This document shows, one piece after another, positions 7,213 to 39,150 of a DNA stretch of 64,000 bases. This DNA comes from a virus, in the IMG/VR virus record IMGVR_UViG_3300025655_000032, positions 1 to 64,000 of that record, one strand, 5' to 3'. Both the position numbers and the translations under genes were made by a program. Below the pieces are notes generated by a model. It had not been told where the DNA came from and searched no databases. It worked only from the letters and a program-made list of their open reading frames with translations. The number at the start of each line of letters is the position of its first letter. Position 1 is the stretch's first letter.

Positions 7213-7221
7213 TGTTATAAT
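7213..7221 (+). promoter_or_regulatory. Extended -10 promoter before the capsid leader
   Basis: TGTTATAAT is a perfect TATAAT with the TGn extension, in the gap between scaffold and capsid genes. No good -35 box is seen 16-18 bases upstream, as is common for extended -10 promoters. Transcription would start near 7228 and read into the structured leader. Confidence 0.6.
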
Positions 7222-7227
7222 ACGCCT

Positions 7228-7366
7228 GCAAGTAGAACTTATTACTACTTACACATGGACGTGAAGCACCGCATGGAAGCGGGGGCTACATGGAAGTGGC
7301 TGGTCACATGGAGGTGACCGTTCTCGTGAGGTGAGGGTTACAACCCCTCCCTCACGACCTTATTTC
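7228..7366 (+). ncRNA. CsrB/RsmZ-like decoy RNA or structured capsid leader
   Basis: Four hairpins follow one another, each with a six-base loop AUGGAN closed by a C-G pair: 7252-7263 (stem CAC/GUG), 7269-7282 (CCGC/GCGG), 7285-7300 (GCUAC/GUGGC) and 7302-7319 (GGUCAC/GUGACC). Stem sequences differ while loops are kept. Three of the four match the published RsmE/CsrA target, (A/U)CANGGANG(U/A). An extended -10 box lies just upstream and a terminator-like hairpin downstream, giving a unit of about 140 nt. Known RNAs of this build sequester CsrA. It could instead act as part of the capsid mRNA leader. Confidence 0.65.
7326..7366 (+). terminator. Terminator-like hairpin ending the GGA-hairpin RNA
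   Basis: GUGAGG pairs with CCUCAC and, inside a one-base bulge, GAGGG pairs with CCCUC around a seven-base loop; the total stem is 11 bp or more. It is followed by GACCUUAUUU, a modest U-rich tail. It could end a short RNA or allow partial read-through into the capsid gene. Confidence 0.5.
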
Positions 7367-7486
7367 GAATACTCCGCGCGATACAGGAGAGGCGGACGGC
7401 ACCGCCACAACAACGGCACTTCGCCTAAGCTACGGCGCACAAGTAGCCATTTTGAGTCCGCACGAAGCGGACACTGTGTTTACTCG

Positions 7487-7502
7487 GCTTCATGGAGGAA
7501 GC
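7487..7502 (+). promoter_or_regulatory. CsrA-type hairpin enclosing the capsid Shine-Dalgarno
   Basis: GCUUC-AUGGAG-GAAGC: a 5-bp stem with the same C-closed AUGGAN loop as the four upstream hairpins. The ribosome binding site GGAGG spans loop and stem, four bases before the capsid ATG at 7506. A CsrA dimer bound here would block the ribosome. Confidence 0.6.
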
Positions 7503-7505
7503 AAA

Positions 7506-8612
7506 ATGGCACTCACTAATTTTGCCCGTCTTACCGACCACGAAAAGAAAGCGTGGTCCATGTCGTTCCAGAAGAACGCCCGCAACAAGTCTTTCTTGAC
7601 CCGCCTTCTGGGCTCTGGTCAGGACTCCACTGTTCAGCGTATCACCGAGCTGAAAAAGTCCAGCAAGGGTACGCAGGCCGTCATCACCCTGGTTCCCGAT
7701 ACCGTCGGCGACGGCGTAGCTGGGGATCGTACGCTGAAGGGTAACGAGGAGGCTCTCAGCTCGTCTGAGCAGGTCATCCGCGTTGATCAGCTGCGCCACG
7801 CGCACGCCAACGAGGGTCGCATCGCTGACCAGAAGACTATCGTCAACTTCCGTAAGGAAGCTCGCGACAAGCTGGCCTACTGGATGGCTGACCGTATCGA
7901 CCAGATGGCCTTCCTTGCCATGTCTGGTGTTGACTTCACCAAGAAGAACAACGGCGCCGATCGCGTCGGTTCTGAGCTGCAGTACTTGGAGTTCAACAGC
8001 GATATCGCCGCTCCGACTTCCAATCGGCATTTCAACTGGAACGGGGACGCCAACGGCCTGGTTGCCGGCAGCACCACCGCCGACACCATCGCGGTGCCTA
8101 CCTACGAGATGCTCCTGCACATGAAGGCCAAGGCGCAGGACGAGTACATCAAGCCGGTTCGCGGCGAGATGGGCACCGAGCTGTACCACGTCTTTATGAC
8201 CCCGCAGGGTGTCAAGCAGCTGAAGCTGGACGACAAGTTCCACAACGCTGTGCGTGACGCCATGCCCCGCACCCCCAACAGCCCGCTGTTCAAGGGGTTC
8301 GATACCATCTATATCGACGGCATGGCTATCCACACCCACCGCTATGTGTACAACACCTCTGGTGCTGACGCTGGTAGTAAGTGGGGCAGCGCGGGTAACA
8401 CCGACGGTCAGGCGGTTATCTTCGCCGGCGCACAGGCTCTGGCCTACGCCGACCTGGGTACCCCCTACTGGGATGAGGAATACGACGACTACCGTAACCG
8501 TATGGGTATTGCGGTCGGTAAAATCTTCGGTTTCCTCAAGCCGCAGTTCCCCTCCGTTGTGCACGGCACCACCGAGGACTTCGGTCTGTTGCGGGTCAAC
8601 ACCGCGATCTAA
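7506..8612 (+). CDS. Major capsid protein, N4-gp56/DUF4043-like, 368 aa
   Basis: Builds the icosahedral head. The N-terminal segment (NFARLTDHEKKAWSMSFQKN, then FLTRLLGSGQDSTVQRITEL) and the following Lys-Gly-Thr-Gln-Ala strand with LVPDTVGDGVAGDRTLKGNE match the N4 gp56-like capsid family. A basic helix at about 110-135 and the C-terminal FGLLRV end also fit. The ATG at 7506 is chosen because GGAGGAAGC lies just before it; an upstream in-frame ATG would lack a site. Translation is probably controlled by the hairpin over its ribosome binding site. Confidence 0.9.
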   Translation: MALTNFARLTDHEKKAWSMSFQKNARNKSFLTRLLGSGQDSTVQRITELKKSSKGTQAVITLVPDTVGDGVAGDRTLKGNEEALSSSEQVIRVDQLRHAHANEGRIADQKTIVNFRKEARDKLAYWMADRIDQMAFLAMSGVDFTKKNNGADRVGSELQYLEFNSDIAAPTSNRHFNWNGDANGLVAGSTTADTIAVPTYEMLLHMKAKAQDEYIKPVRGEMGTELYHVFMTPQGVKQLKLDDKFHNAVRDAMPRTPNSPLFKGFDTIYIDGMAIHTHRYVYNTSGADAGSKWGSAGNTDGQAVIFAGAQALAYADLGTPYWDEEYDDYRNRMGIAVGKIFGFLKPQFPSVVHGTTEDFGLLRVNTAI

Positions 8613-17769: not shown

Positions 17770-17778
17770 TGGTATAAT
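17770..17778 (+). promoter_or_regulatory. Extended -10 promoter before the gene at 17804
   Basis: TGGTATAAT is a perfect -10 with the TGn extension, 26 bases before the next start. It may drive the internal-protein genes separately from the tail genes. Confidence 0.45.
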
Positions 17779-26407: not shown

Positions 26408-26423
26408 GCGACATGGAGGTCGC
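26408..26423 (+). promoter_or_regulatory. CsrA-type hairpin enclosing the M15 peptidase Shine-Dalgarno
   Basis: GCGAC-AUGGAG-GUCGC: a 5-bp stem and C-closed AUGGAG loop, ending one base before the ATG at 26425. The stem is unlike that of the capsid hairpin, yet loop and closing pair are identical, so the structure rather than plain sequence is conserved. Confidence 0.6.
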
Positions 26424-26424
26424 A

Positions 26425-26790
26425 ATGAGGTACTTCGACATTTCCGAGTTCGACTCCCCCGACGCACCGGGGTCGGGGGTCAACATGAACACGCAGTTCC
26501 TCCGTATCCTCGACGCCGCGCGCGAAAGTGCCGGCCTCCCCTTCGCGATAACCAGCGGCTACCGCACCCCAGAGCACAACGAGCGTGTCGGCGGTGTGCG
26601 TAACAGCGCACATACGCGTGGGTACGCTGCCGACATTGTTGCTCGCACTCCGGCCATCGCCATGCGGATTATCACGGCGCTGTACGAGCAGGGGGTGCAG
26701 CGTTTCGGGTACTACCATAAACAGGGCTTCGTGCATGCGGACGTAGATCCCGACAAAGCCGCTCCTGCCTTCTGGGACGATGGAGACTAG
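26425..26790 (+). CDS. M15-family D-Ala-D-Ala/endolysin-type peptidase, 121 aa
   Basis: Predicted zinc peptidase that cuts peptidoglycan peptide bridges. The M15 motifs are complete: SGYRTPEHN, then SAHTRGYAAD (the SxHxxGxAxD zinc site) and a C-terminal FVHADVD histidine. No signal peptide or membrane segment is present, so it needs a holin or acts from the virion. GGAGGTCGC sets the start at 26425 rather than the ATG four codons earlier. The site lies in a CsrA-type hairpin, linking lysis timing to the phage RNA-binding protein by inference. Confidence 0.85.
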   Translation: MRYFDISEFDSPDAPGSGVNMNTQFLRILDAARESAGLPFAITSGYRTPEHNERVGGVRNSAHTRGYAADIVARTPAIAMRIITALYEQGVQRFGYYHKQGFVHADVDPDKAAPAFWDDGD

Positions 26791-28013: not shown

Positions 28014-28088
28014 GTAGCTGTTTTTAGGGCTTTCTGCACAGGATTGTGGCTCCTGTGGTCGTGGGTTCGATTCCCATCAGCCACCCCA
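28014..28088 (+). other. tRNA-His 3' fragment, probable attP core
   Basis: From about 28036 to CCA at 28086-28088 the sequence reads as the anticodon arm (loop UUGUGGC, anticodon GUG), variable loop, T arm (GUGGG-UUCGAUU-CCCAU) and acceptor 3' strand of a gammaproteobacterial tRNA-His. The 5' half is degenerate: the acceptor has an A-C mismatch, no G-1 is encoded, and the D arm is not formed. The integrase gene ends 390 bases away. Phages that integrate at a tRNA carry just such a 3' end to restore the gene, so this is read as attP rather than a working tRNA. Confidence 0.65.
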
Positions 28089-28479: not shown

Positions 28480-29457
28480 TCAGCGGACTATTTCAACCGG
28501 CTCAACCACCTCCGGCTTACGCCGATAGTGCCGATTAAGCGTGCGCTGGTCGGCGTGCCCCAGTAACCTCCCATCACGGGAGTCCGAACCTGCCTTCGCA
28601 CGAAGGTCGTGGAAGGTAAAACGCTCTTCGCGCTTCGCGAACAACGAACGCATTAGTCGCTGCCAGCTACTCTGAAAGCCGCTGCGTGTTAGTGGTTGAC
28701 CACGCACGCCGCGGACAAGGCGGCCACCCGCACCTGCGCCATGATCGTCTGCTCGTACACCCAGGATCGCGCGGAGCTCAGGCGTCCATCGGAACAGGAG
28801 TCGTCGGCCAGTGGATCGAGTGGTCTTATGAGGGCGCACAAGAAGGCCGTCACGCGTAATATTGCTCCCGTCAAGCGCCAGTATGTCAGAGAGGCGTAAG
28901 CCTGTAGCCACAGCAATCTGCATCGCCATCTGGATCGGGGCTGATGCACGGTCGTGAACACGCCAGAATTCGTCGTCAGTGACGTATCGGTCACGCGGTT
29001 TCTCCTTGTTAGACTCAACGAGACGGCAGGGGTTGTCAGCGGCGTAACCCCAACGGATGGCGTACTTGTACACGTGGGAGAGCAGCGCCTTCTCACGATT
29101 GGCGCGCACCGGCGCCCGACGCGCGTCCATGTAACCGTAGATGTGCTGCGGTGTGATCTCCCCCGGCGCCATATGGCCAAACACTGCGCGAAGTCGTGCC
29201 AGCTCAGCGGTATTGTCACGTTGTGTTTGCACCGCTTTGGTAGGTACGACGTCGCGCAGGTAACGGTCTATGATCGTGTCGAGTGTGCGCCCCTCTAGCA
29301 CCGGTGCGAGGTTCAACTCCGCGTAGCGCTGGAGCGCCTCGAAGTAATCGCGGCTGAGTCGGTGCCACTTGTTGGCACGATCAACGAAGTAGTACGTGTT
29401 CCTCTTTAGGTACACGCGCTGTGGGAGATGTTGGTTAATACGGCGTCTTCGGGGCAT
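28480..29457 (-). CDS. int: Tyrosine integrase, 325 aa
   Basis: Site-specific recombinase for integration and excision. The basic N-terminal arm-binding part (residues 1-50) is followed by a SAM-like core-binding domain (about 55-150) and the catalytic domain. Visible catalytic residues are R188 (ATGLRLSD), H283 and R286 (FHDLRAK), H301 (LLGH) and the nucleophile Y311 (NRHYRRK). Length is normal. It reads toward the tRNA-His fragment, the expected att arrangement, and overlaps the upstream DUF4224 gene by 23 bases, so both share one message with csrA. Confidence 0.9.
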   Translation of the reverse strand: MPRRRRINQHLPQRVYLKRNTYYFVDRANKWHRLSRDYFEALQRYAELNLAPVLEGRTLDTIIDRYLRDVVPTKAVQTQRDNTAELARLRAVFGHMAPGEITPQHIYGYMDARRAPVRANREKALLSHVYKYAIRWGYAADNPCRLVESNKEKPRDRYVTDDEFWRVHDRASAPIQMAMQIAVATGLRLSDILALDGSNITRDGLLVRPHKTTRSTGRRLLFRWTPELRAILGVRADDHGAGAGGRLVRGVRGQPLTRSGFQSSWQRLMRSLFAKREERFTFHDLRAKAGSDSRDGRLLGHADQRTLNRHYRRKPEVVEPVEIVR

Positions 29458-29700: not shown

Positions 29701-29952
29701 TTATGGTGGTTTTTTGTCAAGCGTTATGCCGTACTGTTCGCCTCGGGCAATGTTCCACTTGCGTTTTTCTTTCTGCTCGTTTCGATCAGGGGCGGAAATT
29801 CCGATACGAAGTTGCCCACGGCTAACCTCTAGCACTGACACATAAAAGCATTCTCCAGGTTGAACAATCAACGGTTCGTTGTTTTTAGGCTCAATAACGA
29901 TGACCTCTCCCGGGCGTCGTGATAAAACAAGACCAGGACGTATTTTCTTCAT
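29701..29952 (-). CDS. csrA: CsrA/RsmA-family RNA-binding protein, 83 aa
   Basis: CsrA dimers bind GGA-bearing hairpins, usually over ribosome binding sites, and repress or stabilise mRNAs. The first strand LVLSRRPGE (residues 8-16) keeps the paired arginines R12 and R13 that contact RNA, and residues 38-55 match the VxVLxVxxxQxRIGxxAP core. Differences: an N-terminal extension of about six residues, a 10-12 residue insertion (about 21-35), and loss of the usual VHREE strand after Ala-Pro, replaced by a Lys/Glu/Arg-rich segment. RNA specificity may therefore be altered. It is first in the csrA-DUF4224-int operon. Confidence 0.85.
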   Translation of the reverse strand: MKKIRPGLVLSRRPGEVIVIEPKNNEPLIVQPGECFYVSVLEVSRGQLRIGISAPDRNEQKEKRKWNIARGEQYGITLDKKPP

Positions 29953-36139: not shown

Positions 36140-37072
36140 CTACAGTGCTAAGGCTTCTGCGGCCAGCAGTTTGTGCTCGTCGATGAAGGCCTGTGCTTCA
36201 CCAAAGCTGGCGAACACCCTCGCTTCGTCGACATTGTCGGTCCATGTGTGAGCGTCAGTTATCCATAACTCGGCATAGCGGTGTTCGACGACATGAGCGA
36301 CGTCGTCCTCTCCGTCGTAGGCCACTGCGGTGTTCCAATGATCGGTCTCGGACTGTACGAGGTCGAGGGGGAGCTCTTCGATGACGGTGTACTGCTCCAC
36401 CCGCATCTTGGAGTTGTGGTAGTCCGTCGGTACGGCCACGACGTGTGCGGGATTGACCTTCACCGCGACGACTCGCTCGCCCCAGAAGTGCTTTAGGTAT
36501 TCCAAAGAACACACATGGAAGCCTGCAGAACAGGTGCGAGTGGGGTCGTCATCCACATCGGTGCGGGGCATCTGCAACGTGCTACCAACCGCGTTATCAA
36601 ATTTACCCGTGGCGCAGTCGGTCCAATCGTCTCGTATCCGCTTGTAGGCCATAAAGCAGCCGTCGGGGGTAATTGGCAGCTTGTTAGCCTCGAGAAACCC
36701 GTACAGCTGCTCACGAGAGCGGTAGCTCGGGTTGCCCTGCAGGTTCTCGAGAAAGGCTACCATGGGCTGCACGTTAAAGCCTTGCGAGCGCATGCCCAGA
36801 ATACGGTCCACCAGGGCGCCGTGCAGTGTGTCGCCGTTATAGAAGATCGCGCCGTCGCGAACCTCAACACCCTGCTCGGCTGCTGGGGCCAGGTAGGTCT
36901 TGACAACTTGCTCCTGGTCGACCAGCTCGGCGGCGCGTGCCCAATCTTCCTGGCGTACCGCCTCACGAAGATCGTCCCACGATGCGATATCGCTGGTACA
37001 GGTGACGAGCTTGCCCGTGTAGTACATGGAAAAACTGTCGTCGGTCAAAATATAGAAGGGGGTGTCGCTCAT
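36140..37072 (-). CDS. rIIB: rIIB-like protein, 310 aa
   Basis: The C-terminal half carries the rIIB-like pattern: CFMAYKRIRDDW, then CSAGFHVCSLEYLKHFWG and VVAVKVNPAHVVAVP with a final RVEQYTVIEE strand. In T4, rIIA and rIIB control lysis and exclude or resist other phages; the biochemistry is not settled. The ATG overlaps the rIIA-like stop (ATGA), a pairing kept in many phages. Confidence 0.75.
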   Translation of the reverse strand: MSDTPFYILTDDSFSMYYTGKLVTCTSDIASWDDLREAVRQEDWARAAELVDQEQVVKTYLAPAAEQGVEVRDGAIFYNGDTLHGALVDRILGMRSQGFNVQPMVAFLENLQGNPSYRSREQLYGFLEANKLPITPDGCFMAYKRIRDDWTDCATGKFDNAVGSTLQMPRTDVDDDPTRTCSAGFHVCSLEYLKHFWGERVVAVKVNPAHVVAVPTDYHNSKMRVEQYTVIEELPLDLVQSETDHWNTAVAYDGEDDVAHVVEHRYAELWITDAHTWTDNVDEARVFASFGEAQAFIDEHKLLAAEALAL

Positions 37073-39150
37073 TTTTGAGACTCCACAAGCTTTAGGTAAT
37101 GGAAAAAGGTGTCTGCGTCACAGGAGAAGCTATGTCTCTCTGCCTCCAACATGTGTGCAAACATGGGGTACTTCTGCTTCGCTAGAGTAAGTAGCGCGAA
37201 GAAGGGGTAGTCGTTAGTGTCAGCACGATGCAGCACTTTGAACGTCTGTGGGTACTGTCCGAACAAGGTGCGGTACTTCTCGTAGGACCCGCCCGGAAGC
37301 GGTAATTCCTTAAACGCCTCATGTACAGCGATGAGCAGCGAATCGGGGAAGTGAACCGCAAGTCTCTCGAAAAAGAGGCGGTTCCTTCGAAACGGCGTCT
37401 CATAATGCGCAGGGAGAATTTCCGACTGCAGGTGTGCGATTTTCATTCTCGCGACGAACTTCGGATCGCGATAGGCGTTGTAAATGCGCTTGTACAAAGC
37501 AAGCGACAGATGATCGAGTCGCCGCGCGACCGGCTCATCCATGTGCTTTTCAGCACGGGGTATGCCAATGATTTCCAAATCATCGAGCAAACCTAGTTGG
37601 TAGGCCGCGGTATAGGCTTCACACTTAATAGAATCGGAGATGCCGTAGTTCTCAACATGCACATACGCCGCCTTCGCGGGATTGAGTTCGTTGACATCCG
37701 CGACGGTGCGATCACGCCAGTAGTAACGAGAGCGTGCAGTAACGCCGAAGACTGAATGCTTCGTAAGCGTTAGTAGCGCCCCGCCAATTTTTCGCCGCGG
37801 CTGTGCGCCTTTTTTGCGCTGCGGTTTTGTTGCTATGTAAACATCGCTGAAGTTGACCCAGTTGTGGGGACCGCAAATGCGCTCGAGCTTTTGCCGTAAT
37901 TTGGGGTTACCAACGACGCGGATAGACTTACCTTTCAGCCATTCTTTGTTATCACGTAGAAACTTACGTATAGGCGGAGAACGTCCTGCAGCCTCGTCCA
38001 AGTAAATAAAAAGAGGTGTGCCGGAGATCGCCTCAGCAGAGAAAACGTTAGGGTAGTGGTAGTTGGGGTTACGCGTCTGCCAGTCTATAGGTACCCCATA
38101 GGTTTCGTCGGAGCGGATTTCGCAGGTTGCGTCGTTAATATAACGCTCAAAGTCGTTAGTCTTCCAATCGCGGCGCAGTTTGGCGGCCTTTTGTGCGCGA
38201 CGAAGCAGTGTGGGTTCTGCGCGAATGGCCTGCTCCATCTCTTGCAGGTAGCTGCCGTGTAGCTCCTTCAACTTGCGAACAAGCACTTCGATGGAGCGTC
38301 TGTCGTAGGACAGCGCCTCGCGTGACGCTTGAATGTCGATCTCGCCGATGTCCACAAAAAGATCAAAGTGGCGAGCCGATGTGCGAAGTACGCCGAGCGT
38401 CGAGACCACCTCAGCGGGCAACGCACTCCAGGCTATGGGATAGGCCAGTGCGCCCATAACGACTTGCGGCCCCCAGTTATCGTCACGCCGGACGCCGAAC
38501 TTCTCGGTGCGCATGTCGTACTGCGGATGTCGAATAGGGGTGTCGCACCCGCGCAAAACAAAAGTGTGGCTCTCAAAATACCGCAATGCGTGGGCCGCAG
38601 CCTCATTGAACGCCGAGTAATCGCTCCCTTTCACGGGTACAATAACTTCCAGGCCGTTAGGATCGTCGGAGTGTACCTCCTCAACGAGCGTAATCTTCGG
38701 CATGCCATCCGTATCTTTGAAGATGGTGTACGTACCTCGTGTGCCGTTGTACCGAGTAATAACGGTGAACGCATCGACGTAGCTGAGTGGCGTCTTACTA
38801 CCAAGCCCGAGGCCGCCAATCAAATCGTTGGAGTTGTTCTTGTCCGAGCCGAAAAAGGTGACATACAGCACCAGCATCTGCTCGTGCGAGAGACCGGTAC
38901 CATAGTCTTTAATACGTAGCTCCGGACGCAATCGGGTTGGCATAAAAACGTCGAAAGGAGCGCTATTGCCGGCGGCAATATGCGCATCCAGCGCGTTGGC
39001 ACACAGCTCACGTATGATGGCGAGCGGTTTATTGGTGTACAGGTTGCTACTCAAGACCTGGAACGCCTTCGCGTTGGCCTTGATCATGGCGTTGTTGACC
39101 TGTCCTGGAATATGTGCGTCCAGGCGGCGGTCCATACTGGCGATTCGCAT
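37069..39150 (-). CDS. rIIA: rIIA-like protein with GHKL ATPase domain, 693 aa
   Basis: The N-terminal GHKL ATP-binding fold is clear: IIRELCANALDAH (N box) near residue 50, IKDYGTGLS (G1) near 80, and GGLGLGSKTPLSY (G2) near 110. The rest is a long helical and beta region typical of rIIA. It is followed by the rIIB-like gene in overlap. Membrane-associated defence against superinfection is the usual view, inferred from T4. A Shine-Dalgarno hairpin precedes the start. Confidence 0.8.
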   Translation of the reverse strand: MRIASMDRRLDAHIPGQVNNAMIKANAKAFQVLSSNLYTNKPLAIIRELCANALDAHIAAGNSAPFDVFMPTRLRPELRIKDYGTGLSHEQMLVLYVTFFGSDKNNSNDLIGGLGLGSKTPLSYVDAFTVITRYNGTRGTYTIFKDTDGMPKITLVEEVHSDDPNGLEVIVPVKGSDYSAFNEAAAHALRYFESHTFVLRGCDTPIRHPQYDMRTEKFGVRRDDNWGPQVVMGALAYPIAWSALPAEVVSTLGVLRTSARHFDLFVDIGEIDIQASREALSYDRRSIEVLVRKLKELHGSYLQEMEQAIRAEPTLLRRAQKAAKLRRDWKTNDFERYINDATCEIRSDETYGVPIDWQTRNPNYHYPNVFSAEAISGTPLFIYLDEAAGRSPPIRKFLRDNKEWLKGKSIRVVGNPKLRQKLERICGPHNWVNFSDVYIATKPQRKKGAQPRRKIGGALLTLTKHSVFGVTARSRYYWRDRTVADVNELNPAKAAYVHVENYGISDSIKCEAYTAAYQLGLLDDLEIIGIPRAEKHMDEPVARRLDHLSLALYKRIYNAYRDPKFVARMKIAHLQSEILPAHYETPFRRNRLFFERLAVHFPDSLLIAVHEAFKELPLPGGSYEKYRTLFGQYPQTFKVLHRADTNDYPFFALLTLAKQKYPMFAHMLEAERHSFSCDADTFFHYLKLVESQK

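Follow-up and report, generated by a model that had tools for sequence, protein, structure and literature searches.

An array of RNA hairpins upstream of a phage capsid gene

The stretch of viral DNA analysed here (the window, 64,000 bases) comprises bases 1–64000 of the IMG/VR record IMGVR_UViG_3300025655_000032, which totals 67,243 bases. It comes from a KPP25-like podophage, the capsid protein of which shares 49% identity with its counterpart in Pseudomonas phage KPP25, and a run of + strand genes from 282 to ~27,440 takes in the portal, capsid and endolysin. Our subject lies within this run, in the gap between the end of the preceding gene (7189) and the start of the capsid gene (7506), where a promoter-like box, TGTTATAAT, is followed by four hairpins with AUGGAN loops, a GC-rich hairpin of 13 base pairs (bp) and the rest of the leader (Table 1).

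The four hairpins, H1 to H4, form an array of adjacent hexaloops at 7252–7320 (69 nucleotides, nt), each sitting on a C-G pair, with stems that differ in sequence yet remain complementary. In 400 genomes simulated with a second-order Markov model, AUGGAN hairpins with stems of at least 3 bp average 4.8 per genome, two lie within 30 nt of each other in 1 of the 400 and three within 60 nt in none, and the whole array/leader region folds 4.3 standard deviations below shuffled sequences. With two further copies in the genome, H5 and H6, the alignment of all six has the AUGGAN loop and C-G closing pair throughout, both partners vary in four of the five stem pairs, and 93% of cells are paired. Its covariation score is 0.72 compared to 0.21 for shuffled alignments (none of 500 reaches it), and the covariation is abolished when the stem partner is shifted. 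This shows constraint on pairing; it says nothing of evolutionary conservation, because the copies come from within one genome and are not orthologues. The RsmE consensus (A/U)CANGGANG(U/A) is matched by five of the six hairpins genome-wide, three of them in the array. The array has the tandem high-affinity-type GGA-loop hairpins of a Csr/Rsm sponge, although H1 may pair with H3 rather than form a separate hairpin.

The two G-U pairs of H3 fit only + strand RNA, which identifies the + strand as the folded one. They also bear on the idea that the hairpins are DNA elements, since inverted repeats can serve as protein sites on DNA, or that the array is a short leader open reading frame (ORF) with incidental repeats, as a 20-codon open frame from AUG 7255 to UGA 7317 spans H1–H4. 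However, this AUG has no Shine-Dalgarno sequence upstream, the G-U pairs become A-C mismatches on the opposite strand, and H5 and H6 coincide with Shine-Dalgarno sites when read as RNA, so we regard such an origin as highly improbable.

Table 1. Positions in the window of the hairpins, associated signals and genes.
Feature	Position	Strand	Remarks
Promoter-like box, extended -10, TGTTATAAT	7213–7221	+	no -35 match; 30 nt upstream of H1
H1, cacAUGGACgug	7252–7263	+	RsmE consensus match; weak, with pairing to H3 predicted in its place
H2, ccgcAUGGAAgcgg	7269–7282	+	closing-pair probability 0.99
H3, ggcuacAUGGAAguggcu	7284–7301	+	two G-U pairs; RsmE consensus match
H4, uggucacAUGGAGgugaccg	7301–7320	+	closing-pair probability 0.995; RsmE consensus match
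GC-rich hairpin, 13 pairs and one bulge	7324–7357	+	-22.0 kcal/mol; possible intrinsic terminator or leader stem-loop
Alternative long leader stem, GCCAUUUUG (7446–7454) with CAAAAUGGC (7502–7510)	7446–7510	+	hides capsid start codon; competes with H5
H5, gcuucAUGGAGgaagc	7487–7502	+	capsid Shine-Dalgarno GGAGG in and beside the hexaloop
Major capsid protein gene	7506–8612	+	KPP25-like, Phage_capsid_3
H6, gcgacAUGGAGgucgc	26408–26423	+	around endolysin Shine-Dalgarno
M15-type endolysin gene	26425–26790	+	phrog_894 1e-27; PF08291 6e-18
csrA-like gene	29701–29952	-	83 amino acids, divergent; PF02599 33.5 bits, cut-off 27

Copies over the ribosome-binding sites of the capsid and endolysin genes

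A preliminary description of this DNA had reported the four adjacent C-G-closed hairpins with compensating stems, three of them fitting the RsmE consensus, an extended -10 box ahead of them, the late-operon setting and a csrA gene in the same genome, all of which our analysis bears out; its count of four was incomplete, as H5 and H6 had been overlooked. These two share the loop AUGGAG and were the only hits in a genome scan for a Shine-Dalgarno sequence within an ANGGAN hexaloop on at least 4 bp. Counted with a minimum stem of 5 bp, such Shine-Dalgarno hairpins number two, against ~0.1 expected in the phage genome (the automatic count gives 1, since the gene picker dropped the endolysin beneath an antisense ORF). 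Six comparison genomes contain one Shine-Dalgarno ANGGAN hairpin altogether with 0.42 expected; for control genomes without csrA (KPP25, phiA008, AP1 and G007) the total is one, with 0.35 expected. Both the capsid and the endolysin gene therefore have the feature of a CsrA-regulated leader, an ANGGA loop over the Shine-Dalgarno sequence, and this placement is the strongest functional clue that we have.

The csrA-like gene and the candidate binding protein

The product of the csrA-like gene passes the curated cut-off of the CsrA family and keeps the N-terminal LxLxRR as LVLSRR, with insertions elsewhere. Its counterpart of Arg44 of CsrA is uncertain: automatic alignment places no Arg at position 44, and NIARGEQY was matched to SVHREEIY by eye only, after an insertion, which puts an Arg near that position. 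A sequence search for relatives of the protein returned only itself. Structural work on RsmE established that the best site consists of a hexaloop, ANGGAX, set immediately upon a stem that a C-G pair closes (PMC4005645). Because the phage hairpins fit this loop and closing pair exactly, and because the genome has a csrA-like gene, they appear to be sites of the Csr/Rsm type, and our best reading is that the capsid leader contains an array of binding sites for a CsrA-family protein, the targets being the capsid and lysis mRNAs.

Phages also have repressors of their own that act through hairpins at ribosome-binding sites, and the loop is always AUGGA here, more uniform than CsrA requires, so some other RNA-binding repressor of the phage, such as a RegA-like regulator or the capsid protein itself, might read the hairpins, with CsrA being incidental. 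The exact ANGGAX and C-G fit and the presence of the csrA-like gene speak against this, and no other RNA-binding regulator was identified in a search covering part of the genes; we consider such a repressor improbable.

Transcription of the array

Transcription from the extended -10 box is expected to start near 7228. The motif TGNTATAAT has five copies in the window with 0.67 expected, the other four being at 17770, 28443 (-), 41154 (-) and 60362, and, judging by ORF position, at least three of these four stand shortly upstream of genes or a tRNA, which suggests a promoter class of this phage. Promoter scans found no sigma-70-type promoter downstream of the array and ahead of the capsid gene. 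Since the sole promoter-like box of the gap precedes the array, a capsid transcript probably carries the array as its 5' part.

The hairpin that follows the array was previously described as an 11-bp terminator with a U-rich tail. The hairpin is there, with 13 pairs and one bulge rather than 11 bp, its tail, CCTTATTTCG (CCUUAUUUCG), has five U in eight, and the terminator scan did not flag it. It need not terminate, because relatives (L007, L008 and AP1) have strong leader hairpins at the same place without a U tail. The 7324 hairpin could end part of the transcripts, and with a mediocre U tail and such counterparts in relatives a discrete sponge RNA is plausible, no more. The earlier designation as a CsrB/RsmZ-like RNA holds for the Csr/Rsm-type hairpins on the + strand, which could equally be the capsid 5' leader, and fails for family membership: in an Rfam scan of 4227 families the best match, the Csr-type sponge RsmV, had an E-value of 5.6e-4 and scored 20.6 bits with a cut-off of 100, no family matched the array at gathering score, and RsmV was not reported when the whole window was scanned. 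With RsmV so far under the threshold, the array does not belong to any known Csr small RNA (sRNA) family, as judged by these models.

The array might thus act purely as a leader, providing extra sites that load or stabilise CsrA on the capsid mRNA, as in multi-site targets, without any separate sponge. The position of the only promoter-like box upstream of the array is consistent with this, as is the finding that capsid genes of relatives are also preceded by ~150–250 nt with strong hairpins, several of them lacking a U tail; Bcep22-like phages have structured capsid leaders too. However, four identical high-affinity loops at least 170 nt from the start codon exceed what a leader would require, the GC hairpin straight after the array, with its 13 bp and five U in eight, resembles the 3' end of an sRNA, and the unlinked endolysin copy would gain nothing in cis. 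A role confined to the leader is, in our opinion, unlikely.

Proposed mechanism

We propose that the AUGGAN hairpins are recognised by a protein of the CsrA/RsmE family, which may come from the phage, from the host or from each of them. One bound hairpin on the capsid or endolysin mRNA would cover the Shine-Dalgarno sequence and hold translation down. The four-hairpin array would be transcribed from the 7213 box, upstream of the capsid gene, and as late transcription rises the four high-affinity sites on each transcript would draw CsrA off the single sites of the capsid and endolysin mRNAs, so that its withdrawal would turn on structural and lysis proteins together. The array might be set free, as an RNA of ~135 nt whose end lies near 7366, or be kept as the capsid leader, and partial read-through of the terminator would give both a free RNA and an attached leader. 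Taken together, CsrA-family binding, repression of capsid and endolysin and titration by the array make an explanation that we consider moderately probable. In its most complete form the circuit would be self-contained, with the phage's own CsrA repressing capsid and endolysin early and a four-site RNA made from a late promoter titrating that CsrA, and perhaps the host's as well, and so releasing both together; we put this forward tentatively, as a possibility that is rather doubtful.

Several observations weigh against this explanation. The minimum-energy fold has H1 paired with H3 and keeps only H2 and H4 as hexaloops, the four-hairpin fold being at -23.8 compared to -27.6 kcal/mol, a difference of 3.8 kcal/mol (folded alone, H2 and H4 form at a probability of 0.99). 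The closing-pair probability of H5 is 6% once the long leader stem is allowed; that of H6 is 42%. The CsrA-like protein of the phage is divergent, and the AlphaFold model made from its sequence alone, with a predicted local distance difference test (pLDDT) score of 46, is too poor to judge the RNA-binding residues. The array was found in only one phage among those sampled (two overlapping identical contigs), and there are relatives without it, one with a 68% identical capsid protein. Finally, the attachment (att) site of the phage matches 53 nt of tRNA-His in a metagenome-assembled genome of Chromatiales, and this genome itself yielded no csrA. A bound protein could shift the H1/H3 or H5/long-stem equilibrium.

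If the proposal is correct, the phage has turned a bacterial regulator into a switch that times the translation of capsid and lysis genes. In phages, csrA has so far been treated as cargo with no known benefit (JC1 and CSP3); with a csrA-like gene, a candidate decoy and candidate targets in two late genes all present in one genome, the role of phage CsrA can be tested directly. No phage-borne CsrA sponge was described in the literature that we searched, a search with most subscription journals outside its scope.

Distribution and host

The second contig with the array, G001 (46,490 bases, 100% identical), is the same phage. No AUGGAN array was found upstream of the capsid gene in IMG/VR capsid relatives (36 contigs including the phage's own copy) or in named phages, three relatives having been checked in fuller sequence, and such hairpins are absent among relatives of the gene preceding the array and of the endolysin. 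Two csrA-carrying relatives, G013 and G021, also have no AUGGAN arrays; they are distant (capsid ~48% identical) and their CsrA is of another type. In both, a hairpin gcuaacAA(C/G)GGAGguuagc lies over the Shine-Dalgarno sequence of a lipoprotein-like gene (G013:12418-12436, +; G021:38230-38248, -).

For DNA patterns of three tandem CANGGANG in viral contigs, the matches listed comprised the array of this phage, repeats (coding or simple) and a conserved leader from an unrelated phage group. The latter is found in L304, L336, L343, L291, L293, L335, L375, L397, L398, L497 and L327 (e.g. L336:1002-1090) and is intergenic, with three CANGGANG and a CCCAAGCC/GGCUUGGG stem beside the start codon of a gene of ~259 amino acids; the N of its third ANGGA varies between A, U and C. 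It had no Rfam match at the four loci scanned, and no csrA was found on those contigs. Another highly conserved structured leader, in many contigs (L021-L041), is found ~230 nt upstream of the capsid gene (e.g. GCGCUAGUUCGUCGCUCC...GGAUUAGCCGCU).

The phage encodes an integrase and may therefore be temperate. The 3' half of tRNA-His at 28014–28088 adjoins the integrase gene (28480–29457) and is likely the phage attachment site attP. Chromatiales is a tentative assignment of the host group, because the 53-nt match was read by eye and the genome concerned yielded no csrA; in the Chromatiales comparison csrA is present in 17 of 20 genomes, so the likely host group usually has the gene, in keeping with the proposed mechanism. 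A search for host prophages by capsid protein found none. The phage also carries a gene for an RIIA-like lysis inhibitor (37069–39150, -).

Comparison with known systems

The array resembles RsmZ, RsmY, RsmX and RsmV as well as CsrB and CsrC in having tandem A(N)GGA-loop hairpins followed by a terminator-like hairpin. Unlike these RNAs, it lies before a capsid gene in a phage and all its loops are AUGGA, and as an sRNA it is putative. H5 and H6 in turn resemble the hcnA leader repressed by CsrA/RsmE, with an ANGGAX hexaloop around the Shine-Dalgarno sequence, and the 20-nt ribosome-binding-site RNA of PMC4005645 is the same kind of site. In contrast to hcnA-type leaders, the candidate targets in the phage are capsid and endolysin genes, and four further copies stand upstream of the capsid gene.

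A precedent for a mobile element equipped with a CsrA protein is RsmQ, a plasmid-encoded CsrA homologue that recognises AnGGA sites as well as the Rsm RNAs of the host (PMC9928087). RsmQ, unlike the system proposed here, acts on host traits, and the part of that source consulted describes neither an element-borne array nor self-directed sites.

A parallel in setting is provided by the Bcep22-like podophages JC1, CSP3, BcepIL02, Pavtok, Parlo, LASTA, Itty13 and Skulduggery, which have a capsid of a related family and a phage-borne CsrA-like protein. The authors describing JC1 and CSP3 regard csrA as a moron gene (PMC9144972, PMC10269572). In Bcep22-like contigs L402-L409 and L412 (e.g. L402:2426-2528), the structured leader that separates csrA from the capsid gene carries a shared GCGC(A/U)NGA-NGUGC motif, mostly GCGCANGA, close upstream of the capsid start. 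No AUGGAN array was seen in these phages, whereas in the phage described here csrA is ~22 kilobases away from the array and its product is nearer to the classic N-terminal motif. In many Bcep22-like podophages, the CsrA-like gene directly precedes the capsid gene (PMC9144972), in the very slot that the array occupies here, and this arrangement ties CsrA to capsid expression.
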